Below are positions 10,366 through 63,872 of a DNA stretch of 64,000 nucleotides, one piece after another. The stretch lies in the NCBI GenBank assembly GCA_949499105.1, contig CATEFX010000026.1, positions 61,652 through 125,651 on the forward strand. Reading direction: 5' to 3'. Position 1 is the first letter of the stretch; each line of letters begins with the position of its first letter. Below the pieces are notes generated by a model. That model searched no databases. It was not told the DNA's origin and was given only the letters and a program-made list of their open reading frames with translations. This DNA comes from Formosa sp. Hel1_33_131. Lineage in GTDB: Bacteria > Bacteroidota > Bacteroidia > Flavobacteriales > Flavobacteriaceae. The position numbers were made by a program, and so were the translations under genes.

Positions 10366-11061
10366 TTAGCTTAACTTTGAAATGAAATCATCGATAGAAA
10401 TGGCAGATTCAACAGAGAAATCTCCAATTTTTGTACGTCGAAGTGCTGTTAAATGCGCGCCTGACTCCAGTGCCTTCCCAAAGTCATGTGCCAAGGAGCG
10501 TATGTAGGTGCCTTTACTACATGTAATGCTGAAGTCAACCGCAGATCCGTCGATATTAGTGATTTTAAATTCTTGAACGGTCACTTTTCGAGAGTCAATT
10601 TTTACAGTCTGACCAGCGCGTGCAAATTCATACAAGCGTTTCCCGTCTTTTTTTAAAGCAGAAAAAATAGGCGGATACTGATCGATTTCCCCTGTAAATT
10701 TAGTGGTGGTTTGATGAATCAATTCGGGGGTAATATGGGTGGTTGGGTACGTTTGATCTATTTCGGTTTCAAGATCATAGGAAGGGGTGCTACTGCCTAA
10801 AACAAAAGTACCGGTATACGTTTTAATCTGCCCTTGAAAGGTGTCAATCTGCTTCGTCATTTTGCCAGTACAGATGATTAAGAGTCCTGTAGCTAAGGGG
10901 TCCAATGTTCCTGCATGACCCACTTTTATTTTTTTTAGACTAAAGGCTTGTCGAATATGCCATCGCAACTTATTGACCACTTGAAAAGAAGTCCATTCCA
11001 AAGGCTTATCAACCAACAAAACCTGTCCGTCTAAATAATCTTGAGCAGTTTTCATCTTCAA
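10366..11061 (-). CDS. truB: tRNA pseudouridine(55) synthase TruB
   Basis: The 231-residue protein has the TruB signature GHAGTLDPLATGLL (catalytic Asp about 53), the LVDKPLEWTSFQV start and the C-terminal CSKGTYIRSLAHDFG motif. TruB makes pseudouridine 55 in the T loop of tRNAs. It directly abuts uppP (stop of uppP at 11062) in the unit ftsX-DUF3098-uppP-truB, a gene order I associate with Flavobacteriaceae. Confidence 0.97.
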   Translation of the reverse strand: MKMKTAQDYLDGQVLLVDKPLEWTSFQVVNKLRWHIRQAFSLKKIKVGHAGTLDPLATGLLIICTGKMTKQIDTFQGQIKTYTGTFVLGSSTPSYDLETEIDQTYPTTHITPELIHQTTTKFTGEIDQYPPIFSALKKDGKRLYEFARAGQTVKIDSRKVTVQEFKITNIDGSAVDFSITCSKGTYIRSLAHDFGKALESGAHLTALRRTKIGDFSVESAISIDDFISKLS

Positions 11062-11850
11062 TTAAAGGGTTATGATGATGGCTAAAACACCTACGGTTAA
11101 ACAGTAATAGGCAAAATATTTTAGTTGACTATTTTTAACCAATCGGATCATGAGTGTGCAGGCAAAAAGACCTGCCACAAAGGCCGCCAAAAATCCAGCC
11201 GATAAGCTGCTGAAATTCGCGGCACTATAGCTCAAATCACCACTAAGAATGTCTTTAGCGATTTTTCCAAAAATTAGAGGGATTACCATCAAAAATGAAA
11301 ACCGTGCTGCTTTTGATTTGTCATTGCCAAGTAATACAGACGTTGAAATTGTAGCCCCCGAACGCGAAATCCCAGGAAGCATTGCAATTGCTTGCGCAAC
11401 TCCTATGATGAGTGCATCCCAAAAACTCACTTTTTTTGTAGTTTTTTTAGCCCGATCTGCCAAAAACAATAACAAAGCTGTTACAATCAACATAGCACCA
11501 ACAAGAAGAATATTATTCCCAAAAAGGGCTTCTAGCTCCTCCTCAAATAAAATCCCAACAAACCCAGCTGGCAGCATTGAAATCATTATTTTGACAATAA
11601 ATTGGGTTTCATCATTCCATTTGAACTTGAAAAATGCGCTAATTATTGAAGCAATATCTTTTCTAAAGATGACTAAGGTGCTTAAAGCAGTTGCAAAGTG
11701 CAGCACTACGGTAAAGATTAAGCTGTCTTCTGGAATGGAATTATCGCCCAGAAGTACTTTACCAATTTCCAAGTGTCCACTCGAAGATACAGGAAGAAAC
11801 TCGGTTAGTCCTTGGATGATGCCGAGTAAAATGCTATCAAAAATATCCAT
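11062..11850 (-). CDS. uppP: Undecaprenyl-diphosphatase UppP (BacA)
   Basis: A 262-residue polytopic membrane protein with both BacA signatures: GIIQGLTEFLPVSSSGHL at the N-terminus and PGISRSGATI near residue 160. It dephosphorylates undecaprenyl pyrophosphate to recycle the lipid carrier for peptidoglycan and other surface polymers. It sits between DUF3098 (1 bp upstream) and truB with no gap, so translation is probably coupled. Confidence 0.96.
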   Translation of the reverse strand: MDIFDSILLGIIQGLTEFLPVSSSGHLEIGKVLLGDNSIPEDSLIFTVVLHFATALSTLVIFRKDIASIISAFFKFKWNDETQFIVKIMISMLPAGFVGILFEEELEALFGNNILLVGAMLIVTALLLFLADRAKKTTKKVSFWDALIIGVAQAIAMLPGISRSGATISTSVLLGNDKSKAARFSFLMVIPLIFGKIAKDILSGDLSYSAANFSSLSAGFLAAFVAGLFACTLMIRLVKNSQLKYFAYYCLTVGVLAIIITL

Positions 11851-52238: not shown

Positions 52239-53495
52239 ATGAAAAAAATTACTTTATTATTGACAGTTATGACATTTTCTCTTGGATTCGCCCAAAGTCT
52301 CCCTATAGATTTTGCAGATCCTTTAGATGCGAAATTTGTTGGTGCTGGTGGAGCTACATTTAGTGTTACTGCTGACGGCACTAATGCTATTGGACAAATT
52401 ATTGGAGGATCTGATCAGTACAATAGCAGGATTGACTTGGCATTAGATACATATATAGATATGACTACAGCTGCTAAAACGTTTACTTTTAAATTTTACA
52501 CGACTGAAGCTGTCGTAATGGAAGGATTGCTTCAAATTGGCGCTGAAAAGGCTGGTGGATATCCTATAGAATTGCAGTTTACAACTAATGGTGTTATTGG
52601 CTGGGAAACGATCACCCTTGATTTTACAAACGCCACAAACGGATATCCAAATGCTGCAGACCCCGTTGTTTTCGGACAATATGCTCAAATATCGGTTTTT
52701 ACTAATTTCGGAGATACTGGTTTTTCAACGTATTGGATAGATGATATTGCTGGTGCAGCTAATGGAACTGCAGTTCCTCAACCAATAACTTCCCTAAGTG
52801 TAGATTTTGAAACAACGACTGCGTTTGCACCTGATGCTGGAAGTGTTTACACAGATCAGGTCACAAACGATTTAACCACTGGAATTAATTCTTCAGCTAA
52901 TGTGGGTCAGGCATCTCAAGTTAATAATGGACCTTGGGCAAATACTCAATTAGTAGTTACACCATCTTTAGATATGTCAGCTGAAGACAAAGGCTTTTCA
53001 TTAATGGTTAAAGGGCCAAGAGCTGTATCGGTTAAGTTAAAGCTTGAGGGTGGTACTAATAACGAATTAGATGCATCCTACACAACTCCGAATGTTTGGC
53101 AGGAACTTACTTGGGATTTTTCTTCTGACTCTTCAGTAAATCATAACAAAATAGTTCTATTTTTTGATATTTCTGGAGCTACTAGTGCAACTGCTTCGGA
53201 TGATGTCTTTTTGATAGACAATCTTGAGTTTGCAGTTTTTAGTACATTTTCTACATCTAATTACTCCTCAAACGCCGTAAAACTATACCCAAACCCAGCT
53301 AAGGGGATTGTAAACTTCTCAACGGTTTCAAACAAAGCGTTAGAGGTTTCAGTCTATGATTTATTAGGGAAACAAGTATTGCGTGCAGAAAATGTGCAAT
53401 CTCAACTTAATATATCAAGCTTAAACCCTGGAATGTATTTTGTAAATATGACTCAAGGATCTAGTGTTTCTACTAAAAAACTATTAGTAAACTAA
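52239..53495 (+). CDS. T9SS-secreted protein with two jelly-roll-like modules (copy A)
   Basis: The 418-residue protein has a signal peptide (about 1-19, ending LGFAQ), two related beta-rich modules (about 20-180 and 185-330) and a type A T9SS sorting domain (about 345-418) starting LYPNPA and ending KKLLVN. Each module has a W-x-x-[IL]-T-x-D-F strand and an ending [YF]xIDxI/L pair (TYWIDDIAGA; VFLIDNLEF), which resembles carbohydrate-binding jelly rolls. It is about 80 percent similar over its first module to the gene at 55000. Substrate unknown. Confidence 0.88.
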   Translation: MKKITLLLTVMTFSLGFAQSLPIDFADPLDAKFVGAGGATFSVTADGTNAIGQIIGGSDQYNSRIDLALDTYIDMTTAAKTFTFKFYTTEAVVMEGLLQIGAEKAGGYPIELQFTTNGVIGWETITLDFTNATNGYPNAADPVVFGQYAQISVFTNFGDTGFSTYWIDDIAGAANGTAVPQPITSLSVDFETTTAFAPDAGSVYTDQVTNDLTTGINSSANVGQASQVNNGPWANTQLVVTPSLDMSAEDKGFSLMVKGPRAVSVKLKLEGGTNNELDASYTTPNVWQELTWDFSSDSSVNHNKIVLFFDISGATSATASDDVFLIDNLEFAVFSTFSTSNYSSNAVKLYPNPAKGIVNFSTVSNKALEVSVYDLLGKQVLRAENVQSQLNISSLNPGMYFVNMTQGSSVSTKKLLVN

Positions 53496-53751: not shown

Positions 53752-54426
53752 ATGAAAAAAATTACTTTTTTACTAATGCTTTTGACGGTCTCTTTAGGCT
53801 ATTCACATATCTTAATTTTTAATTCTAGCAGTAACGATCTAGCGCATTTAAACCTACCCTCAACGTGCTCTGGAACGACTACTGAGGCTACTGATGGGAC
53901 ATTTTCTGCAGGACTCGACTATGAATTTGTTACCAATGGAGCGGACGTTACGATCACTTTTACGCTATTAGACACGGACAAACAGGGTTTAAGTCCTCAG
54001 TTATTTCGTGCTCCTTCTACATTTACTGATTTTTCTTTCGATGGAACATCATACTCAGTCACACTAACGGACCAAACAGCTGGGGCAACTCTAAGTTTTC
54101 AGTTCAGAGGTGCATATATGGATGCTGGTTTGATTGTCTCAAAAGTTTTTAATTACAAAGTAGGTGAGGGCTGTGTGTTAAGCACTGAAACTCTTGAAAC
54201 AGCTCTTTTTAATGTATATCCGAATCCAGCGAAAAGCGTTATCAATATCTCATCGACGTCCAATGAAGTTTTTGGAGTTTCAGTCTATGACTTATTGGGC
54301 AAGCAAGTCCTGCGTGCAGAAAACGTAAAGTCTCAACTTAATATATCGAGTTTAAATCCTGGATTGTATGTTTTAAATATGACACAAGGATCTAATAGTT
54401 CTACTCAGAAACTATTAGTCAAGTAA
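53752..54426 (+). CDS. T9SS-secreted protein, shorter member
   Basis: The 224-residue protein has a signal peptide (about 1-18, ending GYSHI), a single beta-rich domain (about 20-148) with a pair of Cys (CSGT and GEGC) that could form a disulfide, and a T9SS sorting domain almost identical to those of its two neighbours (VSVYDLLGKQVLRAEN, LNISSLNPG). The central domain shares no visible similarity with the neighbours. Function unknown; it may be a surface adhesin or binding module. Confidence 0.85.
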   Translation: MKKITFLLMLLTVSLGYSHILIFNSSSNDLAHLNLPSTCSGTTTEATDGTFSAGLDYEFVTNGADVTITFTLLDTDKQGLSPQLFRAPSTFTDFSFDGTSYSVTLTDQTAGATLSFQFRGAYMDAGLIVSKVFNYKVGEGCVLSTETLETALFNVYPNPAKSVINISSTSNEVFGVSVYDLLGKQVLRAENVKSQLNISSLNPGLYVLNMTQGSNSSTQKLLVK

Positions 54427-54999: not shown

Positions 55000-56259
55000 A
55001 TGAAAAAAATTACACTATTATTTACATTCTTAGCGATTTCTTTAGGGCACGCGCAAAGTCTCCCTATTGATTTTGCAGATCCTTTAGATGCAAACTTTAC
55101 GGCCGCAGGCGGTGCTGTATTTTCTGTCACTGCTGATGGAACCAATGCTATTGGTCAAATTATTGGAGGTGCTGCCCAATACGATAGTAGAATGGATTTA
55201 GTCTTAGATACATACATAGATATGACGACTCCTGCTAAAACATTCACGTTTGAATATTATACAACTGAAGATATTGTAATGAATGGACTACTTCAAATTG
55301 GAGCAGAACAAGACGGAGGATTCGCAATTGAAAAAGGATTCGTAACTGACGGAAATATTGGTTGGGAAACAATCACTATTGATTTTTCAGATGCTACTAA
55401 CGGCTATCCAAATGCTGCAGACCCCGTTGTTTTTGGTCAATACGCACAAATCTCAGTGTTTACTAATTTTGCAGATACGGGTGTATCTACATATTGGATA
55501 GATGATATTGCCGGAGCTGCTAATGGAGCTGCTGTGCCACAACCATTAACGTCTTTAGTTGTAGATTTTGAAACAGCGACTACCTTTTTGGGAGATACCA
55601 ATCTTACTTACACGGATCTTGTTGCAAACGATGTAACTGATGGAGCCAACTCCTCAGCAACTGTTGGACAGCTATCAGGTATCAATACAGGACTTTATTC
55701 AAACGCACAATTATTAGTTAGTGAGAATTTTGATATGTCTGCTGGTGACAAAGGTTTTTCGATAATGGTAAAAGGCCCAAGAGCTATTCCAGTTATCAAA
55801 TTTAAGCTTGAAGGTGGTGCTGCTAACGAAAAAGATGCAGCTTACACAACTCCAGGCGTTTGGCAGAAACTTACGTTCGATTTTACTGCTGATACATCAG
55901 TAACACACAACAAAGTGGTCATATTTGTCGATTTTGCAACTGCAGCTAGTGCAGTTCCAGCGGATGATGTTTTTATGATTGATAATCTTGAATTTGACGT
56001 TTTAAGTACACTTTCTGCGAAGAGTTTTTCTTCTAGTTCAGTAAAAATGTACCCGAACCCAGCAAATGATATTTTAAACTTCTCTTCAGCTTCTAAGAAA
56101 GCTTTAAATGTCGCGGTTTACGATTTGTTAGGAAAACAAGTTTTACGTGCAAATGCTATTCAGTCTGAGCTTAATATTTCTAGCTTAAATCCTGGAATGT
56201 ATTTTGTTAACATGACTCAAGGTTCTAGTACTTCTACTAAGAAACTACTAGTAAAATAA
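55000..56259 (+). CDS. T9SS-secreted protein with two jelly-roll-like modules (copy B)
   Basis: The 419-residue paralogue of the 52239 gene has the same layout: signal peptide (ending LGHAQ), two beta-rich modules and a T9SS type A domain ending KKLLVK. Shared stretches include ADPLDA, TYIDMTT, FGQYAQISVFTNF and TYWIDDIAGAANG. Differences are scattered, so it is an older duplication, or one kept similar by gene conversion, rather than a recent copy. It is the last chromosomal gene before the accessory island. Confidence 0.88.
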   Translation: MKKITLLFTFLAISLGHAQSLPIDFADPLDANFTAAGGAVFSVTADGTNAIGQIIGGAAQYDSRMDLVLDTYIDMTTPAKTFTFEYYTTEDIVMNGLLQIGAEQDGGFAIEKGFVTDGNIGWETITIDFSDATNGYPNAADPVVFGQYAQISVFTNFADTGVSTYWIDDIAGAANGAAVPQPLTSLVVDFETATTFLGDTNLTYTDLVANDVTDGANSSATVGQLSGINTGLYSNAQLLVSENFDMSAGDKGFSIMVKGPRAIPVIKFKLEGGAANEKDAAYTTPGVWQKLTFDFTADTSVTHNKVVIFVDFATAASAVPADDVFMIDNLEFDVLSTLSAKSFSSSSVKMYPNPANDILNFSSASKKALNVAVYDLLGKQVLRANAIQSELNISSLNPGMYFVNMTQGSSTSTKKLLVK

Positions 56260-56286
56260 GGGTTTACTAACCAATTTAACTTTTTA

Positions 56287-56316
56287 AAAAGGCCTCCATT
56301 TGGAGGTCTTTTTTTA
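56287..56316 (+). terminator. Terminator after T9SS copy B
   Basis: Arms AAGGCCTCCA and TGGAGGTCTT with a long T-run, 27 bp after the stop. Same GGCCTCC core as the two upstream terminators. Confidence 0.88.
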
Positions 56317-56513
56317 TGCCCTCATCCCACCTACGGTTCATTCATACGAGGTATGAGGAACGAATAACGCGGTATCTCATGAAGTGAAACTAAAAACGAA
56401 TAGACTGCCGCGCCGTAAAAAACGACGAGCAATGACGTAGCGTGTCGTTATTACGAGCCTGCCTTTTGGTAGACAGGCGTAGTGCAGTCATCTTAGGGTT
56501 GTAACCAAAAACA
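56317..56513. repeat. REP-like palindromic region at the left border of the island
   Basis: GC-richer than its flanks and full of inverted repeats: CCTCAT/ATGAGG (about 56320-56355), AACGAC/GTCGTT (about 56420-56450) and GCCTG/CAGGC (about 56458-56478). The pieces CATACGAGG...GCGGTATCTC and GACTGCCGCGCC...GCAATGACG resemble degenerate arms of the CGAGG/CAATGACG palindromes found scattered in Bacteroidota genomes. No gene. Family assignment is from recall. Confidence 0.5.
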
Positions 56514-56543
56514 AAAACGCCAAGACATATGTCTCGGCGTTTT
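56514..56543 (+). terminator. Near-perfect hairpin, terminator-like
   Basis: Arms AAAACGCCAAGAC and GTCTCGGCGTTTT around a short ATAT core with one mismatch; the flanking A and T runs make it a bidirectional terminator candidate. It separates the palindromic region from the ORF remnant. Confidence 0.6.
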
Positions 56544-56574
56544 ATCCGTACCCCTTACGATTCCATTATCGAAC

Positions 56575-56709
56575 CCTTTTTACCAAAACCTTACTGATAT
56601 CTATAATTTAAAAGAACTCCTTTATAACGAGGGTATTGCAGATATAGATGGATTGCCTATTGTCAAACCTGATAATCGTAGTAATTCAGTATTACCTAAC
56701 AGTTATTAA
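56575..56709 (+). pseudogene. ORF tail without a start (remnant)
   Basis: An open frame of about 45 codons ends at TAA 56707-56709 with a protein-like sequence (ELLYNEGIADIDGLPIVKPD) but has no ATG nearby. It looks like the 3' end of a gene cut off at or near the hairpin. It may belong to the same element as the next gene. Confidence 0.4.
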
Positions 56710-56730
56710 ACTATAATAGTATTAAATAGT

Positions 56731-56976
56731 ATGGCGAATAATACAGGAAAGAAATACGGAGGTAGAGAGAAGGGTACGCCTAATAGAATGACAAAAGAGT
56801 TGAGGTCTGTTCTTAAAGACGTATTGTACGAGGAGATAGAAGCGTTACAAGAGCGTTTAGGCGCTTTAAAACCGAAAGAGAGGGTAGAGTTACTTATTAA
56901 GTTAATGCCTTACGCGTTACCCAAAGTAACAAGCGTATCGCATACGACTAATGAACCGTTGGATTGGGGTATTTAA
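56731..56976 (+). CDS. Small phage/element-type protein (DUF5681-like)
   Basis: The 81-residue protein starts GKKYGGREKGTPNRMTKELR, the GGRxKGTPN pattern that I associate with DUF5681-like small proteins near phage terminase genes, followed by a charged helix (ERLGALKPKERVELLIKLMPYALPK). No terminase follows here. It is likely a remnant of a phage or mobile element. It overlaps the convergent membrane gene by 4 bp. Confidence 0.65.
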   Translation: MANNTGKKYGGREKGTPNRMTKELRSVLKDVLYEEIEALQERLGALKPKERVELLIKLMPYALPKVTSVSHTTNEPLDWGI

Positions 56977-57269
56977 TACACATAGTAAAAGTAAAGAACA
57001 AAAAGTACCAACATCAAAATGATATAGATCCAAAAAAAATATTTATCTAAAAATTCTTCAATAAATTCTCCAATAGAAGATGGTAATTTTGAATATAAAT
57101 ATAAAATAGGCGCCCATACTATTACCAAAACCACGACAAATATTGGAAAAAATATAAAGAAGAACATTACTTCTTGAAAAATCATATAATATAAAAAATC
57201 AGAAAACAAACCTAATAAACTTATAAACCCCAATCCTTCGATGTCTTCTTTATGTATTAGTTTTTTCAT
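56973..57269 (-). CDS. Small membrane protein of the nuclease cassette
   Basis: The 98-residue protein has two or three strongly hydrophobic helices (FLYYMIFQEVMFFFIFFPIF, then VVLVIVWAPILYLYSK, then FFWIYIILMLVLFVLYFYYVY) and a short charged N-terminus. The ATG overlaps the TGA of the upstream zinc-finger nuclease gene (57266-57269), so translation is coupled. I recognise no family. In a defence-type operon such a protein could be an effector or an anchor; this is inference. Confidence 0.7.
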   Translation of the reverse strand: MKKLIHKEDIEGLGFISLLGLFSDFLYYMIFQEVMFFFIFFPIFVVVLVIVWAPILYLYSKLPSSIGEFIEEFLDKYFFWIYIILMLVLFVLYFYYVY

Positions 57270-59059
57270 TTATTTTCTGCTTTTTCAGTTAGTATTTTAT
57301 CAATGTATGCTTCTAATCCTTTTTCGTTCTGTAATCCGTCTTTGGATTGATATGCTTTAATTTTAGACACTAACTCATTGTCTAACTCAAATATAGATAA
57401 AATCATTGATAGTATGTCGTTGGTCACTTTTTTGCCATCGTAAGGTTTCTTGCTTACAATATCTGTATCGTATATCTTTTTAAGTGGTTCTTCTCTAACT
57501 CGTATTAACTTAAACCCTTCTTCAAAGAGCATTTCGGATTTAATCTTATCGATATCTCGTTTGTCTTTATGCCAATAAGAACCGTCAAATTCAATACATA
57601 AATTTAGTTTAGGGATGAATATATCTATTGATCTTAATCGTCCTTCTAAACGAGTTTTTAACCCTTTTGGGTCAATATTTTTAAACAGTTTCATTAACTC
57701 GAATGTAATTGTGAGTTCTTGCTTTGATTGGGGTGTCAAGTCACAATATGGACATCCTGTCCCACCATAAATTCTATTAAATGGTCTTGTTCTCCATTCG
57801 TGATCATCTCCTTTTGAGCATTTCCACCAAACCTCTTTGTGAGTAGCCGGAACAATATCATTTGGATTTAAGTTTCCATTTTTGGTTGGATGCCATTCAC
57901 TTGACAGTTTAGGATACAAAGTTTGTAAACTATTAGATTCAGCTACTTTTAATCCTCTGCAAAATGGACATCCATCTCCGGATTCACGACCATCTCTTAA
58001 CGCTCCACGTTTTCTAACAGTAGCATCCCAAACGTGATCGTCTGCTTTCGAGCATTTCCACCACACTCGTTTAGTTGTTAAATAATAAACATCATTTGGA
58101 GTTAAATTTCCATTCAATGAAGGGTGCCATTCTTTTGCTAATTCAGGATTTACAGTTTGAAGACAATTTGATAGCACTACAATTTTACCGCTACACATAG
58201 GACAGCCATCTCCTCTTTGGACTCTTTTACTTATTGTATTTTTCCATTCGTGATCGTTTCCTTTTGAGCATTTCCACCAAACTTTTTTACTGCTGTTAAC
58301 ACCAACATTATTTGGAGTTAAATCTCCATTCTTTGTTGGATGCCATTCTTTTGCTAATTTGGGATTTAGTGTTGCTAAAGAATTTGAATTAACAATAACT
58401 TTTTCAGCACAAACAGCACAATCATAACTGTTACTATTAAGTGCGAGAGGAGATTCATTCCAAACGTGATCATCTCCTTTTTCACACTTCCACCAAACCT
58501 TTTTATTAAATTTTATGCCAACATCCAAAGGAGTTAAATTTCCATTCAATGAAGGATGCCATTTAGCTGCTAATTTGGGATTTAAAGTCTGTAAACTATT
58601 TGATTTTACTATAATATGACCGGAACATATAGCACAACCATTATTTAGTGAATTGCGGTTGCCAATTCTTGCTTCCCATTCGTGATCATCTCCTTTTGAG
58701 CATTTCCACCAAACTTTTTTACTGCTATTTGGAGCAACATTCAAAGGAGTCAAGTCTCCATTCTTTGTTGGATGCCATTCCTTTGCCAAAGAAGGATTTT
58801 TAATTAATAAACTATTTGATTTCACAATTGTTCTTCCGGAACATACTGAACATTTAACTATTCTTTTTTTCTTTTTGTTATATCTTGAATTAGGGGAACT
58901 TTCCCATTCGTGATCATTTCCTTTTGAGCATTTCCACCAAACTAATTTTCCGCTTCCAATAGTTACATCATATGGTGTTAAATCACCATTCTTTGTCGGA
59001 TGCCATTGTTTAGCAACTTCAGGATGAGTTTCAGCAAGTGATTTTTTGTCTTTTCGCAT
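57266..59059 (-). CDS. Six-repeat zinc-ribbon protein with C-terminal Vsr-like nuclease
   Basis: The 597-residue protein has six tandem modules (about 72-78 residues each, residues 1-448), each with [AS]xxWHP, WWKC, HxW and a C-x2-C pair, giving a likely Zn site of Cys, His, Cys, Cys (DUF4379-type treble-clef zinc finger). A nuclease domain follows: RSIDIF (Asp479), then IEFDGSYWHK (Glu490, Asp492, His497) and LIRVRE, the pattern of Vsr-like PD-(D/E)xK enzymes. The repeats probably bind nucleic acid. It starts 3 bp after the upstream nuclease gene and overlaps the membrane gene. Confidence 0.85.
   Translation of the reverse strand: MRKDKKSLAETHPEVAKQWHPTKNGDLTPYDVTIGSGKLVWWKCSKGNDHEWESSPNSRYNKKKKRIVKCSVCSGRTIVKSNSLLIKNPSLAKEWHPTKNGDLTPLNVAPNSSKKVWWKCSKGDDHEWEARIGNRNSLNNGCAICSGHIIVKSNSLQTLNPKLAAKWHPSLNGNLTPLDVGIKFNKKVWWKCEKGDDHVWNESPLALNSNSYDCAVCAEKVIVNSNSLATLNPKLAKEWHPTKNGDLTPNNVGVNSSKKVWWKCSKGNDHEWKNTISKRVQRGDGCPMCSGKIVVLSNCLQTVNPELAKEWHPSLNGNLTPNDVYYLTTKRVWWKCSKADDHVWDATVRKRGALRDGRESGDGCPFCRGLKVAESNSLQTLYPKLSSEWHPTKNGNLNPNDIVPATHKEVWWKCSKGDDHEWRTRPFNRIYGGTGCPYCDLTPQSKQELTITFELMKLFKNIDPKGLKTRLEGRLRSIDIFIPKLNLCIEFDGSYWHKDKRDIDKIKSEMLFEEGFKLIRVREEPLKKIYDTDIVSKKPYDGKKVTNDILSMILSIFELDNELVSKIKAYQSKDGLQNEKGLEAYIDKILTEKAENK
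57770..59040 (-). repeat. Imperfect 216-234 bp coding repeats of the zinc-ribbon gene
   Basis: The six zinc-finger modules are visible at DNA level, for example the recurring GAGCATTTCCACCAAAC and TGGATGCCATTC blocks on the plus strand. Their similarity makes this segment prone to recombination and assembly error. Confidence 0.8.
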
Positions 59060-59062
59060 AAT

Positions 59063-60082
59063 TTAATTCAAACCTTCATTGTCAATGTTTTCAATCTTAT
59101 CTTTAATCAAGTTTTTAGAAACTACTTCATCATACCTAATTATTATCAGTTTAATTCCTAATTTTTGGCAAATTAGTTTCTTTCTTTTATCCCTTTCTTT
59201 TACTCCGATTAGTCCTTTTTTTCCTCCAAATAGTTTAACGGGTTTGTAATGTTGCAATCCATTGTATTCGAATCCAATCTTTTTATTCTTTATAAACACA
59301 TCTAATTCTAAACCTTCTAATTCAGATCCCCTATAATGTTGTATGACATCTGATTTTGGAAAAATTTCTTTTAAGAGTTTAAACATAATTGTTTCATTAA
59401 CCCACATTTCTCCAATTGGTTTGTATCCAAACTCTCCTCTAACGATATTTTCAACTAAAGAGTTTAATTTTCTTTTTAATCTCTCTATCTCTTTATCTAT
59501 TTGATATATTTCAGATCTTATATTTTCAGGGATAAGTCCAAACTCTCCTTTATTTTTTTCTACCTCTTTATTTCTGTAATTTATTAAGTAATCTAAACGT
59601 TCGTTATTCTTGTTGTGTTCTTCGACTGTATCTTGATCAAAATTATTTTCCCATTTTCTTCTCTCAATGTACCACCCAAAGGTTCGTTTAAATTTTCCTC
59701 CGTACATTGGATTGCAAAACTCTTTTGATGGGGTCTTATTATTACAACGGTGACATAGATTTGCTTCATAATCGTATCCATTAATATATCTGTAATACCA
59801 ATTAGTGTGTGAAAAACTTAATTTTTCTTTATCAAAATCCTCATTCCAACGATTCTTTCCGTAGAACTTGTCATATTCATCTTTTAGGTGTTTTATGTGA
59901 TTTTCAATTGAATTTTTAAAACATTTACAAACCTTGAAGTTACCTTTACCATCGCCGAATTCAATTATCCAATTTCCTAATTGATATTTAACATAGGGAA
60001 GTGGCAATCCTTCTTCAAAACCAATACCTTCATATTTTGAGGGTAAATTTTTACTAAATTCTTTTCTAACGGTCATATTCAT
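59063..60082 (-). CDS. Putative PD-(D/E)xK nuclease with Cys-rich N-terminal half
   Basis: The 339-residue protein has Cys52-x-Cys54, then Cys110-x2-Cys113 and Cys123 (LCHRCNNKTPSKEFCNPMYGG), a possible zinc finger. After a charged coiled-coil region (about 185-212), the C-terminal domain shows LELDVF (Asp261), IGFEYNGLQHY (Glu272, Gln277, His278) and an ERDKRKKLICQKLGI helix. This resembles the nuclease domain of phage and homing-type endonucleases. Function is unproven. It is the first gene of the three-gene cassette. Confidence 0.78.
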   Translation of the reverse strand: MNMTVRKEFSKNLPSKYEGIGFEEGLPLPYVKYQLGNWIIEFGDGKGNFKVCKCFKNSIENHIKHLKDEYDKFYGKNRWNEDFDKEKLSFSHTNWYYRYINGYDYEANLCHRCNNKTPSKEFCNPMYGGKFKRTFGWYIERRKWENNFDQDTVEEHNKNNERLDYLINYRNKEVEKNKGEFGLIPENIRSEIYQIDKEIERLKRKLNSLVENIVRGEFGYKPIGEMWVNETIMFKLLKEIFPKSDVIQHYRGSELEGLELDVFIKNKKIGFEYNGLQHYKPVKLFGGKKGLIGVKERDKRKKLICQKLGIKLIIIRYDEVVSKNLIKDKIENIDNEGLN

Positions 60083-60122
60083 AAATATATGTCAATATAA
60101 ATAACTATTAAAATATAATTTA

Positions 60123-60130
60123 TATATTTG
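60123..60130 (+). promoter_or_regulatory. -7 promoter box of the MerR-like regulator
   Basis: TATATTTG matches TAnnTTTG, 25 bp upstream of the ATG and 6 bp before the palindromic operator candidate. Confidence 0.6.
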
Positions 60131-60136
60131 TAAAAG

Positions 60137-60150
60137 TTACATTAATGTAA
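60137..60150. promoter_or_regulatory. Perfect palindrome TTACATTAATGTAA, likely operator
   Basis: A 14-bp perfect dyad in the 74-bp gap between the divergent regulator and nuclease operon, at the expected transcription start of the regulator. Probable binding site of the MerR-like protein for autorepression and possibly control of the nuclease genes. Confidence 0.6.
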
Positions 60151-60155
60151 TATTT

Positions 60156-60977
60156 ATGAAATTAATTGAAAATAATGTATTTGTTGCATCTGATTGGTTT
60201 GATTTAAACTTCTTTGGAGGGTTCGCAAGTTCGTCCGATGCGATTAAAGAAAAGTTGAATTTACAGAACTATAAAGTAGATGATAAACGTCTATCTTCAA
60301 GGGTTTTAAATCATTGGTATAAGTCGGAGATAATTGAAGACAATAGACCAAATGGAAAAGGTTGGAAGAAGTTTAGCATTTCAGAATTAGTATGGGTTCA
60401 GATTGTATTTAAATTGAGAAATATTGGTTTAGATCTTAACAGAATTAAATTAGTTAAACATCATATTGATAAGTTCAATTCAATAGATGAAAACTCAAAT
60501 TGTCTTCTCCTTGACTTTTATATTTTAGTTGCAATGTATTCCGAAACCCCTATAAAATTATTGATTTTTGAAACAGGTCAAGCAGAAATAGTTCGTCAAG
60601 TTGATATCGATATTGCAAATCAAATGGAGATTATCATAGAAGATTTCATAATGATCGACCTCAACAAACTACTTGATAAACTCTTTACCAAGAAAAAAAT
60701 AAAGGCAGATTACTTTGGGCAAAAGGATGCTAACCAAAAATCGGCATTAGTACAACAAATAGAAACATCTGTTTTAAAAGAAAACATCCAATCAGTTACA
60801 GTAAAAGTTAATGACAAAGATTACTCAATTGATGAAAAGTATTTTGTAAAAAACAAAGACAAGGCGAATGCCATTTTTAATATGTTGGATTTTGGAGAAT
60901 TAATTGTAAAAAAACACAATGGGAAATCAACTTATGAATTGACGAATAAAAAGAAAATAAAAAGGGACAACCCCTAA
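60156..60977 (+). CDS. MerR-like HTH regulator of the island
   Basis: The 273-residue protein has a MerR-type winged helix in its first 100 residues: SSRVLNHWYKSEII, a wing GKGWKKFSISELVWV and IGLDLNRIKLVKHHI. The rest (about 105-273) is helical then mixed, with no recognised ligand motif. It is divergent from the nuclease operon and lies beside a perfect 14-bp palindrome. The long C-terminal part suggests an unusual sensor domain. It could also control the recombinase downstream. Confidence 0.75.
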   Translation: MKLIENNVFVASDWFDLNFFGGFASSSDAIKEKLNLQNYKVDDKRLSSRVLNHWYKSEIIEDNRPNGKGWKKFSISELVWVQIVFKLRNIGLDLNRIKLVKHHIDKFNSIDENSNCLLLDFYILVAMYSETPIKLLIFETGQAEIVRQVDIDIANQMEIIIEDFIMIDLNKLLDKLFTKKKIKADYFGQKDANQKSALVQQIETSVLKENIQSVTVKVNDKDYSIDEKYFVKNKDKANAIFNMLDFGELIVKKHNGKSTYELTNKKKIKRDNP

Positions 60978-61011
60978 CGTAGGAATAAGTGTTTCCAAAT
61001 GGGACAACCCC
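60964..61011 (+). repeat. Pair of 11-bp direct repeats GGGACAACCCC
   Basis: Exact copies at 60964-60974 (overlapping the regulator's stop) and 61001-61011, 37 bp apart, just upstream of the recombinase leader ORF. Each has a GGG/CCC dyad. Possible recombinase or regulator sites. Confidence 0.5.
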
Positions 61012-61036
61012 AAGCGAAATACACTTTACGAATTAA

Positions 61037-61177
61037 ATGTTATCTATTGAGTTATGTAAAAAAGTATTAAACGACAAAAATAAAAATTACAGTAATGAAC
61101 AAGTCAAACTAATTAGAGACCATCTTTACAAAATGGCGCTAATTATTGATGAGGTAAAAGACAAAGACAATGATTAA
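61037..61177 (+). CDS. 46-residue protein overlapping the recombinase start
   Basis: The ORF starts ATG TTA TCT and ends TAA 61175-61177, overlapping the recombinase ATG (61170) by 8 bp. The product is charged and helical (MLSIELCKKVLN...IRDHLYKMALIIDEV). Such tiny ORFs occur directly upstream of serine recombinases in Bacteroidota elements; I infer a role in translational coupling or regulation. Confidence 0.65.
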   Translation: MLSIELCKKVLNDKNKNYSNEQVKLIRDHLYKMALIIDEVKDKDND

Positions 61178-62786
61178 TCTAAATGGAAAGAGTGCAATAC
61201 TTTACAGGCGAGTAAGTACAACCGATCAGAAGCAGTTTGGTAATAGTTTAAACGCACAACAAAGCAGTTTAAGGGACTTTTGCAGCAAACATTTAATAAG
61301 TATAGTCAAGGAGTTTCAAGAGGATTATTCAGCAAAGAATTTCAATAGACCTGAATGGAAGAAATTGAACGAATTTGCAAATAAGAATAAGAAAAATATT
61401 GATTATTTACTTGTTGTTGATTGGGATAGATTTTCAAGAAATGTGTATGATGCATTAGGGGTAATAAATGATTTCAAGAATATTGGAATAGAGGTAAACT
61501 GTATTGGTAAATGGATTAACTACAAAGATCCTGCTCAAACAATGATGCAATTAATGTATTTAGGAATGCCCGAAGTTGACAACAAGATACGAAGTCAAAA
61601 AGTACAAATGGGTATGCGACAAGGTTTAAAAGAAGGGCGTTGGAATGTAAAACAACCGATAGGGTACGTTCCTGCTAAAGACGAATTAGGCAAAACCTTA
61701 ATGAAGAAAGATCCTATTAAAGCGCCTTTGATTGAACAGTTATTTTCAACTTATGCAAGAGGTTTATATTCACAAAATGAAATACTCAAAATGGCAAAAT
61801 TTAAACATTTGAAATTGTCAAAAAGTAATTTAAGCAGAATGTTAAAAAATATCATTTATACAGGAATGATAAAAGTGCCTGCAAATGCAGAAGAACCTGA
61901 ACAAATAGTCAATGGATTGCACAAACCAATAGTTTCAAAAGAGATATTTAACAAGGTTCAACGCTTGTTAATTTCGAGGACAAAAAATAACAGTAAGCAT
62001 AATAAGATGAGAGACGATATGTATTTACGTGGACATCTTAAATGTGCTAAATGCGGGGGAAATTTAACAGGCAGTGCATCCACAAGTAAAACAGGTGCAA
62101 AGCACTATTACTACCATTGCAATAGAGCAAAAGGATGCAAAGAAAGTTTTCGAGTTAAAGATGCGCATAATGAATTAATCGAAGTATTTAAAGCAATGAA
62201 ACCACCTGTTGAGGTATGTGATTTATTTGAACTTATTTTAGATGATCATTACAAAACATCCAAACAAAGTCAGTACAACGATATTAAAAGGGTTAAGTCA
62301 GAAATTGAAAGGTTAGTAGTCAAAAAAGATATTTCGTTGGACAAGTTATTGGGCAAGGTAATTTCCGATGAAGTGTACTCAAAATACAATTTAGGTATTG
62401 ATAAAGAATTGACCGAAAAAAGAAACGAATTATTAAACCTGAACGATTATCAAAAGGATTTAAGCGACTACATAAATTTTGGTTTGAAATTGATGCAAAA
62501 TTTAGAGACATTCTTTGAACAAAGTGATGTACATATCAAGAATAAATTATTGAGTTCGATATTTGATGAAAAAATAGAATTTGATGGAGAAAAGTATCGA
62601 ACCCCAAAGTTCAAGGAAGGATTTGGATTTATATATCAGAAAATCAACGAGTTACAAGGTCTAAAAAAAGAAAAAGGAGACAACTTTTCAGATATCTCCC
62701 ATTTAGTACTCAAGGCGGGAATCGAACCCGCACGTCTTGCGACATTGGATTTTGAATCCAACGTGTCTACCAATTCCACCACTTGA
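61170..62786 (+). CDS. Large serine recombinase of the island
   Basis: The 538-residue protein has the resolvase domain with the catalytic Ser16 in LYRRVSTTDQ, and DWDRFSRN. The recombinase domain follows (RWNVKQPIGYVP), then a zinc ribbon with Cys292-x2-Cys295 (KCAKCGGNL) and YHCNRAKGC, and a coiled-coil part. It would integrate and excise DNA between attP and attB sites. The last 26 or so residues (AGIEPARLATLDFE...) are the antisense reading of tRNA-Leu(CAA), so the stop lies in the tRNA gene and the native C-terminus was probably changed by integration. Confidence 0.92.
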   Translation: MINLNGKSAILYRRVSTTDQKQFGNSLNAQQSSLRDFCSKHLISIVKEFQEDYSAKNFNRPEWKKLNEFANKNKKNIDYLLVVDWDRFSRNVYDALGVINDFKNIGIEVNCIGKWINYKDPAQTMMQLMYLGMPEVDNKIRSQKVQMGMRQGLKEGRWNVKQPIGYVPAKDELGKTLMKKDPIKAPLIEQLFSTYARGLYSQNEILKMAKFKHLKLSKSNLSRMLKNIIYTGMIKVPANAEEPEQIVNGLHKPIVSKEIFNKVQRLLISRTKNNSKHNKMRDDMYLRGHLKCAKCGGNLTGSASTSKTGAKHYYYHCNRAKGCKESFRVKDAHNELIEVFKAMKPPVEVCDLFELILDDHYKTSKQSQYNDIKRVKSEIERLVVKKDISLDKLLGKVISDEVYSKYNLGIDKELTEKRNELLNLNDYQKDLSDYINFGLKLMQNLETFFEQSDVHIKNKLLSSIFDEKIEFDGEKYRTPKFKEGFGFIYQKINELQGLKKEKGDNFSDISHLVLKAGIEPARLATLDFESNVSTNSTT

Positions 62787-62788
62787 GC
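62707..62788 (-). tRNA. tRNA-Leu, anticodon CAA
   Basis: An 82-nt cloverleaf on the minus strand: acceptor GCTCAAG / CTTGAGT (first pair G-T), D-arm TGGTGGAATTGGTAGACA, anticodon stem TTGGA/TCCAA with CAA in the loop, T-arm GCGGGTTCGATTCCCGC, discriminator A. No encoded CCA. The 3' end borders the island, consistent with a tRNA target for integration. The recombinase frame overlaps it on the opposite strand. Confidence 0.95.
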
Positions 62789-62800
62789 CTAAGTAGATTG

Positions 62801-62808
62801 CAAAACTA
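62801..62808 (-). promoter_or_regulatory. -7 promoter box of tRNA-Leu(CAA)
   Basis: On the minus strand TAGTTTTG matches TAnnTTTG, 13 bp upstream of the tRNA. This shows the promoter lies on the chromosome side, outside the island. Confidence 0.6.
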
Positions 62809-62873
62809 TAAAATTATTTCTATAATCATATAAAAATAGTCACTTATATCCTTTAAGAGTTCAAATAAAGTTC

Positions 62874-62881
62874 TAAATTTG
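62874..62881 (+). promoter_or_regulatory. -7 promoter box of prs
   Basis: TAAATTTG matches TAnnTTTG, 49 bp before the prs ATG, with TTTA 18 nt upstream as a weak -33. Confidence 0.55.
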
Positions 62882-62930
62882 CAGCTTGAATAAAAAATCA
62901 ATTTAAAGCTCTCAAAAACAGAACGCTATC

Positions 62931-63872
62931 ATGTCTAACGTCATTCCAGAACCAAAAATATTCGCCTGTACCAATACCATGGTCTTAGGGAAAAAAATTG
63001 CGGCGTCCTACGGAATCCCTCTGGGAAATGTAATTACATCGACCTACAGTGATGGCGAATTTCAACCGTCTTTTGAAGAATCTATTCGAGGAACACGGGT
63101 GTTTTTGATTGGTTCTACCAATCCTGGGCCGGAGAATTTAATGGAATTATTGCTGATGTTAGATGCCGCTAAACGCGCGTCTGCCAGACATATTACCGCT
63201 GTCATTCCTTACTTTGGATGGGCACGACAAGACCGAAAAGACAAACCAAGAGTGCCCATTGCTGCTAAATTAGTGGCTAAAATGCTAGAAACAGCGGGCG
63301 CCACTCGGATCATCACGATGGACTTACATGCCGATCAAATTCAAGGCTTTTTTGAAAAACCGGTCGATCACATGTTTGCATCCACCATCTTTTTACCGTA
63401 TTTACAAAGTTTGAATCTGGATAACCTCACCATAGCATCTCCCGATATGGGCGGTTCTAAACGTGCCTATGCCTATTCAAAAGCACTAGGAAGTGATGTG
63501 GTTATTTGTTACAAACAACGGGCCAAGGCCAATATCATTTCTCATATGGAATTGATTGGAAATGTGACTGGAAAAAATGTAGTGTTGGTCGATGATATGG
63601 TTGATACGGCTGGAACCCTCACAAAAGCGGCCGACCTGATGATGGAACGCGGCGCACTCAGTGTAAGAGCCATTTGTACACACCCAATTTTATCGGGGAA
63701 TGCCTACGAACGTCTCGAAAACTCAAAACTAGAAGAACTAATCGTCACCGATTCTATACCACTTTCTCAAGAAAGTTCAAAAATTAGAGTCTTAGGCTGT
63801 GCTAATTTATTTGCCGATGTCATGACTAAAGTGCATCAAAATAAATCGATTAGCTCACAATTTGTAATGTAA
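62931..63872 (+). CDS. prs: Ribose-phosphate pyrophosphokinase
   Basis: A 313-residue protein with PRPP synthetase motifs: SDGEFQPSFEESIRG, PYFGWARQDRKDKPR, the MDLHADQIQGFF part and the PRPP-binding loop NVVLVDDMVDTAGTL. It makes PRPP from ribose-5-phosphate and ATP for nucleotide, His and Trp synthesis. Length is normal. The L25/Ctc gene follows at 39 bp, a common order. Confidence 0.97.
   Translation: MSNVIPEPKIFACTNTMVLGKKIAASYGIPLGNVITSTYSDGEFQPSFEESIRGTRVFLIGSTNPGPENLMELLLMLDAAKRASARHITAVIPYFGWARQDRKDKPRVPIAAKLVAKMLETAGATRIITMDLHADQIQGFFEKPVDHMFASTIFLPYLQSLNLDNLTIASPDMGGSKRAYAYSKALGSDVVICYKQRAKANIISHMELIGNVTGKNVVLVDDMVDTAGTLTKAADLMMERGALSVRAICTHPILSGNAYERLENSKLEELIVTDSIPLSQESSKIRVLGCANLFADVMTKVHQNKSISSQFVM

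Follow-up and report, generated by a model that had tools for sequence, protein, structure and literature searches.

A 64,000-nucleotide stretch of the genome of Formosa sp. Hel1_33_131 (hereafter the window; assembly GCA_949499105.1, contig CATEFX010000026.1, positions 61,652 to 125,651) carries a chromosomal island of about 6.2 kb, inserted at a leucine transfer RNA gene, tRNA-Leu(CAA). Its cargo is a minus-strand unit of three open reading frames (ORFs), A, B and C. Both A and B are predicted nucleases, with B joining an array of six zinc modules to a C-terminal domain of the Vsr/EDxHD kind, and C is a putative membrane protein. The cargo is tentatively read as a sequence-directed DNA-cutting defence, a function to which we give slightly less than an even chance. 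The host assembly comprises 2.1 Mb in 66 contigs and is 86.6% complete.

A predicted zinc-array nuclease with a changing array

The original prediction described three tightly coupled genes, and this arrangement was confirmed: A and B are separated by a 3-bp gap, B and C overlap by 4 bp (Table 1), and the third-position guanine-cytosine content of C resembles that of A and B. The proposed architecture of B also held. Each of its six DUF4379 units scores over the cut-off, the Cys-His-Cys-Cys ligands are invariant, and at the DNA level the units form direct repeats with a spacing of mostly 216 bp. The C-terminus matches I-Bth0305I (PDB 3r3p) by sequence profile, and its predicted fold aligns with Vsr (1vsr, 1cw0) and I-Bth0305I. 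Residues E490, D492, H497 and D504, the candidate active site, are invariant across 25 aligned sequences. Similarly, invariant candidate active-site residues and the predicted fold support the nuclease call for A, whose C-terminus aligns with the same two enzymes. The two nuclease-like proteins of the earlier claim were therefore upheld, and the structure predictions retain a candidate active site in each. Fold and metal sites being predictions, B is best described as a predicted nuclease and A as a second predicted nuclease with one zinc module. Both predicted nuclease domains resemble I-Bth0305I and Vsr in fold, but the DNA-reading parts differ and sequence identity is low; curated family models for the two domains remain below cut-off.

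Table 1. Features of the island and its insertion site (window positions).
Feature	Position	Strand	Description
Island, ~6.2 kb	56548-62705		Insertion at tRNA-Leu(CAA); left GTAC at 56548, right end before GTAC at 62706
Hairpin terminator, likely tRNA-Leu's own	56514-56543	-	13-pair stem, T tail
ORF D, 81 aa	56731-56976	+	Backbone protein; L252 homologue at 10903-11157, E 2e-24; phrog_15261, E 1.3e-4
ORF C, 98 aa	56973-57269	-	Putative two-helix membrane protein, orphan; two hydrophobic stretches
ORF B, 597 aa	57266-59059	-	Six CHCC (DUF4379) units, then Vsr/EDxHD-like predicted nuclease domain
B nuclease domain, residues 441-597	57269-57739	-	Vsr/EDxHD-like, predicted
B array, residues 11 to ~440	57740-59029	-	Six DUF4379 units, borders by hmmsearch
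ORF A, 339 aa	59063-60082	-	Four-Cys likely zinc module, helical hairpin, Vsr-like domain
Palindrome, candidate operator	60137-60150		Perfect, 14 bp, TTACATTAATGTAA; in divergent gap
REG	60156-60977	+	Weakly MerR-like, below Pfam cut-off; homologue in sister island L252
Large serine recombinase	61170-62786	+	Resolvase, Recombinase and Zn_ribbon_recom over cut-off; phrog_95 integrase, E 1.5e-70
tRNA-Leu(CAA), insertion site, intact	62706-62788	-	ARAGORN; Rfam RF00005

B belongs to a family in which the nuclease domain stays alike while the attached array varies. The comparison set holds 120 proteins, namely B and 119 of the 120 relatives listed (P0071, identical to B, was dropped), these being the best of 7,989 scored and biased to close relatives. 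In 38 of them, B included, the nuclease domain is at least 75% identical to that of B, and the arrays hold 4 units (one protein), 5 (three), 6 (seven), 7 (14), 8 (nine), 9 (three) or 10 (one). Across the 703 pairs of these 38 proteins, the nuclease domain has a median identity of 82.6%, compared with 57-59% for the first, last or best-matching internal units. Of eight pairs with nuclease domains 94-96% identical, seven have internal units that match at 54-64%, whereas in the eighth (P0080-P0159) the units lie in register at 88%. Among the 25 closest pairs listed, 24 have last units that are 41-74% alike when aligned.

The break in similarity coincides with the domain border. For 74 pairs that are out of register and have nuclease domains at least 90% identical, identity per ten residues is 0.20-0.50 ahead of the border, with 0.50 for the ten array residues that adjoin it, and reaches 0.99 over the first ten residues of the nuclease domain. 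Because the comparison is ungapped, differences in loop length account for part of the low values upstream. The corresponding step in four in-register pairs is from 0.73 to 1.00. Within the lineage of B itself, P0073 and P0085 have six units in register with those of B at 72-93%, and the eight variable columns that follow the His ligand, which were grouped after the table had been seen, average 0.83 identity (the mean of table rows) compared with about 0.14 in random units. Such conservation is compatible with a reading function, without proving it.

Parts of this design have been described in phages. As far as the available part of PMC12350094 goes, four phage group II introns bear homing genes that encode 3-5 CapR/DUF4379/DUF723-like domains together with a C-terminal EDxHD/Vsr-like domain, with thousands of UniProt hits. 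B shares the order that marks this group, tandem zinc modules of ~60-70 amino acids and then a C-terminal EDxHD/Vsr-like domain. In contrast to those intronic genes with 3-5 domains, B has six units and no recognised intron, and lies in a bacterial island unit beside a second predicted nuclease. An Rfam scan of 55900-63200 at gathering thresholds returned the tRNA only and no intron around B; an intronic position, true of the four described phage genes, is not required of free-standing ones. The available part of PMC10448857 describes T5orf172 homing endonucleases whose zinc fingers are repeated CapR, DUF723 or 'DUF4397' modules, as well as Odn (DUF4397 is the spelling of the text; one legend gives DUF723/4379), together with bead-like zinc arrays, module swapping and a role in phage-satellite conflicts. 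Bead-like arrays with module exchange are common to those systems and B, but their nuclease is the T5orf172 domain, which Pfam did not recognise in either A or B at E up to 1, whereas that of B is Vsr/EDxHD-like and sits on a chromosomal island. Phage zinc-array homing nucleases with shuffled modules are thus already described. What is new is the setting on a chromosomal island, the exchange of arrays on a Vsr-type cutter and the presence of a second predicted nuclease in the same unit. Nothing was found in the literature, the subscription part of which was only partly covered, on the island, the A family or DUF4379-Vsr proteins as a bacterial defence.

The island, its relatives and its changeable slot

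The left end of the island was placed from a displaced hairpin and a GTAC, with an accuracy of some ten bases. In the window the hairpin is separated from tRNA-Leu by the island and lies 6.2 kb away, whereas in the island-free genome G005 of the same genus a similar hairpin ends 13 bases (by eye) from the tRNA-Leu GTAC, and so the sequence between is taken as the inserted piece. Consistently, the G005 site is nearly empty, with matches to window positions 56315 and 62706 only 97 bp apart. No long direct repeat flanks the island. The complete island is found in none of the 17 other genomes of the genus, with short matches in seven, and the sequence just right of its left end resembles a stretch of G012 and, weakly, one of G016. 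Genomes G012 and G006 carry different sequence at the same tRNA-Leu, which marks the site as a hotspot. The G012 cargo (L192 9204-12672) includes a 164-amino-acid ORF, presumably of the GIY-YIG kind, and the G006 cargo (L195 1-972) an ORF that we take to be reverse-transcriptase-like from its motif. In G013, 97% identical at the site, the contig stops at L194 2653, the base matching 62706 at the right junction of the island. The gene beside tRNA-Leu(CAA) in the window is presumably prs. To the left of the island lie secreted-type neighbours (52239-53495, 53752-54426 and 55000-56259) with a common C-terminal domain, which we assume to be of a sorting type.

Six ORFs occupy the island, in the order D, C, B, A, REG and serine recombinase. 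The recombinase gene ends within the tRNA gene, as in tRNA-integrating serine-recombinase elements, and because its last 26 codons are the antisense of tRNA-Leu, insertion completes the integrase gene. The claim of an island with a serine recombinase was in this way substantiated. Matches to the recombinase (E up to 1e-20) occur in 14 of 149 family genomes, its own included. Eight related loci were compared, seven from five genomes plus the sister island L252 of another genus; in six of them the recombinase gene extends into a tRNA, in one it abuts a tRNA and in one it stops at a contig end. At L266 and L267, from two other genera, the related recombinase sits at tRNA-Leu(CAA) beside a prs-like gene.

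Locus L252 shares with the window island a recombinase gene ending in a tRNA, REG and ORF D, and differs in its tRNA (tRNA-Asn) and in its cargo. The latter comprises McrC (PF10117, E 1.3e-49), an AAA protein (E 3e-12), and C5 (E 4.9e-76) and N6/N4 (E 8.5e-43) methyltransferases. PADLOC assigned both methyltransferases to type II systems and the AAA protein, more weakly, to type II restriction enzymes; the McrC protein had no PADLOC match. Since this McrBC-like and two-methyltransferase cargo rides on a shared backbone, islands of this kind can carry restriction-type defence, although the evidence is thin, with L252 as the one clear case. Locus L266 has only a weak REG-like gene (E 1.4e-4), and its DUF4365 and DUF4238 cargo had no PADLOC match. 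No match to A, B or C was found in the fetched stretches of the eight loci.

The earlier claim of a divergent MerR-like regulator stands for the position of REG, whereas its MerR identity is weak. REG and its L252 homologue are 36% identical (E 1.7e-50), and no match was found among plasmids. The gap between A and REG spans 73 bp; its palindrome is one of seven perfect palindromes of at least 14 bp in the window, and since L252 has a different palindrome upstream of REG, this one is not common to both islands. A TAnnTTTG-like box, which we take to be a Bacteroidota promoter motif, lies directly before the palindrome on the REG side.

On the other side of B, the tail of the gene (57255-57307) recurs without the B body, and ahead of small genes other than C, at four loci of the genus (L246 3021-3073, L247 4035-4090, L249 3544-3588 and L251 651-695), that is, in 4 of 18 genomes, its own included, while a reversed control gave none. 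The copies stop at the start of the following gene, which encodes 157 amino acids in the host's own contig C19, 93 in G012, 144 in G003 and 141 in G011; judged by their N-termini, these products are secreted-type (C19), hydrophobic (G012) and lipoprotein-like (G003 and G011). The 3' end of ORF D (56799-56976) also recurs in the genus at 82-96% identity (L246 3543-3620, L247 5590-5641, L248 4449-4488 and L250 614-783), and two of these copies lie beyond a slot with a B tail at its opening, such that in C19 and G012 an ORF D-like 3' end stands on the far side. The simplest reading of these sequences is that B-family genes once preceded varied small genes and were then lost, leaving their tails; past loss is suggested, its route is not. 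Because B tails precede different small genes, the place of C would be an exchangeable one, and C is not necessarily a constant partner. Weak matches to C in 4 of 396 other genomes of the same family all lie in frames with stops.

Defence, homing and other readings of the unit

In the tentatively preferred reading, the six zinc modules of B would read a long DNA site and its Vsr-like domain would cut it, thereby destroying the DNA of incoming phages or rival elements and protecting the island or the host. B may derive from homing-type nucleases recruited by the island. A could assist B by adding a second cut, or act independently, and C may be a membrane partner or a bystander. REG would repress the unit through a divergent promoter in the gap that holds the palindrome. 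The simplest guess as to how host DNA is spared is that the target site is absent from it.

Several results weigh against this reading. The conserved three-gene system proposed originally was not found elsewhere. A conserved A-B-C neighbourhood was not seen at A-relative loci (80 genomic and 80 viral, the best of 507 and 380 confirmed) and in the 396 family genomes, where A gave partial matches only (10 of 396) and the nuclease domain of B, the sole part of B searched, weak ones (4 of 396). A DUF4379 unit profile recognised no ORF near A-family genes at the 80 genomic loci, many of which have short flanks; at L086 the matching ORF is a DUF4379 protein in its own right. For C, 5.8 billion proteins yielded five word-sharing candidates, none of which scored, and REG has a match in just 1 of 328 other genomes. 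Nor was the proposed enrichment near defence genes seen, as 83 PADLOC families matched near A-family genes and 186 in the control (E up to 1e-6; the near set being 150 of 169 ORFs within 3.5 kb at 27 loci, the control 150 of 152 ORFs lying 5.5 kb or more away at 23 of those loci), a crude count given that many models are generic. Pfam recognised mixed genes among the near ORFs. PADLOC gave no better match here than mREase_II (E 0.17, 9.2 bits), and Foldseek by itself gave weak E-values for both nuclease domains. However, close relatives of A and B were seen only as proteins, mostly from short metagenomic contigs with unreadable neighbourhoods, so that A and B might still co-occur among near relatives. 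The defence or competition module of the original prediction accordingly keeps its nucleases, putative membrane protein, island and sister cargo but not its conserved trio, and the missing neighbourhood that it had named as a refutation was in part encountered.

In several viral loci, further B-like nuclease ORFs lie near A-like ones at L123, L128, L145 and L152, among others, matching A in the nuclease domain only. On the viral contig L152 (13986-16460) B-like and A-like frames adjoin, with further such frames around. Scanning viral sequences with B yielded 15 loci, all weak.

The unit could alternatively be selfish, with B a free-standing homing endonuclease copied into the empty allele that it cuts, A likewise, and neither with a role in defence. 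This is a credible alternative, if on the whole a doubtful one. The intronic homing genes of PMC12350094, to judge from its available part, are the closest described architecture; PHROG names among the matches of B include HNH and homing endonuclease; and the B nuclease domain is rare in the family, yet tail remnants persist at four loci of the genus, which fits gain and loss. Moreover, four plasmid loci of B relatives have no annotated A-like partner, as in selfish homing genes, a further point against defence. Homing sits less easily with the lack of an intron at the locus by Rfam, with the tight gene unit on an island beside a divergent regulator and with the restriction genes that L252 carries in the same setting.

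Binding of RNA has to be considered because mitoribosomal proteins are the best matches of the DUF4379 units and, with FASTKD4, fill the top structural rows for the A C-terminus, where nucleases do not appear; these matches also count against DNA cutting. That the array reads RNA, with the unit cleaving or sequestering phage or host RNA, is nevertheless improbable, given that the B C-terminus also matches I-Bth0305I by sequence profile, that both nuclease domains align with Vsr and I-Bth0305I, and that PMC10448857, in its available part, regards the zinc modules of related phage nucleases as binding DNA. A role in mismatch repair or island maintenance, whether by nicking in the manner of Vsr or by assisting integration and excision, is very improbable. 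Vsr mismatch endonucleases nick T:G mismatches and have a companion cytosine methyltransferase, but no methyltransferase was recognised among the six ORFs of the island, and the missing matches to A, B and C in the fetched stretches of the related recombinase loci argue against maintenance.

A bolder proposal is that B-family proteins are natural zinc-array nucleases open to re-targeting: whole arrays would be swapped onto a fixed Vsr-type cutter, a few variable post-His residues would set what each unit reads, and islands would use such a nuclease, together with a second one, as an address-reading immune system made of protein alone. Taken as a whole this is unlikely. In 60 other in-register unit pairs from nine protein pairs the post-His columns average 0.56, and in the B lineage conservation is lower in the variable columns ahead of the His ligand (0.28-0.78); both findings also count against the preferred reading. 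A universal specificity code is not claimed, as post-His columns are less kept elsewhere (Spearman 0.48, p 0.06, 16 columns).

Implications

If B does read DNA unit by unit, there would be a family of nucleases made of protein alone, with 4-10 zinc units that can be exchanged and possibly a recognition code, such as that revealed by TAL effectors. With the cutters similar and the arrays changing, such a code could be tested directly in comparisons between in-register and swapped lineages. If the defence reading is true, homing-type nucleases would have been turned into a chromosomal-island defence, comparable to the restriction genes of L252 in the same setting.

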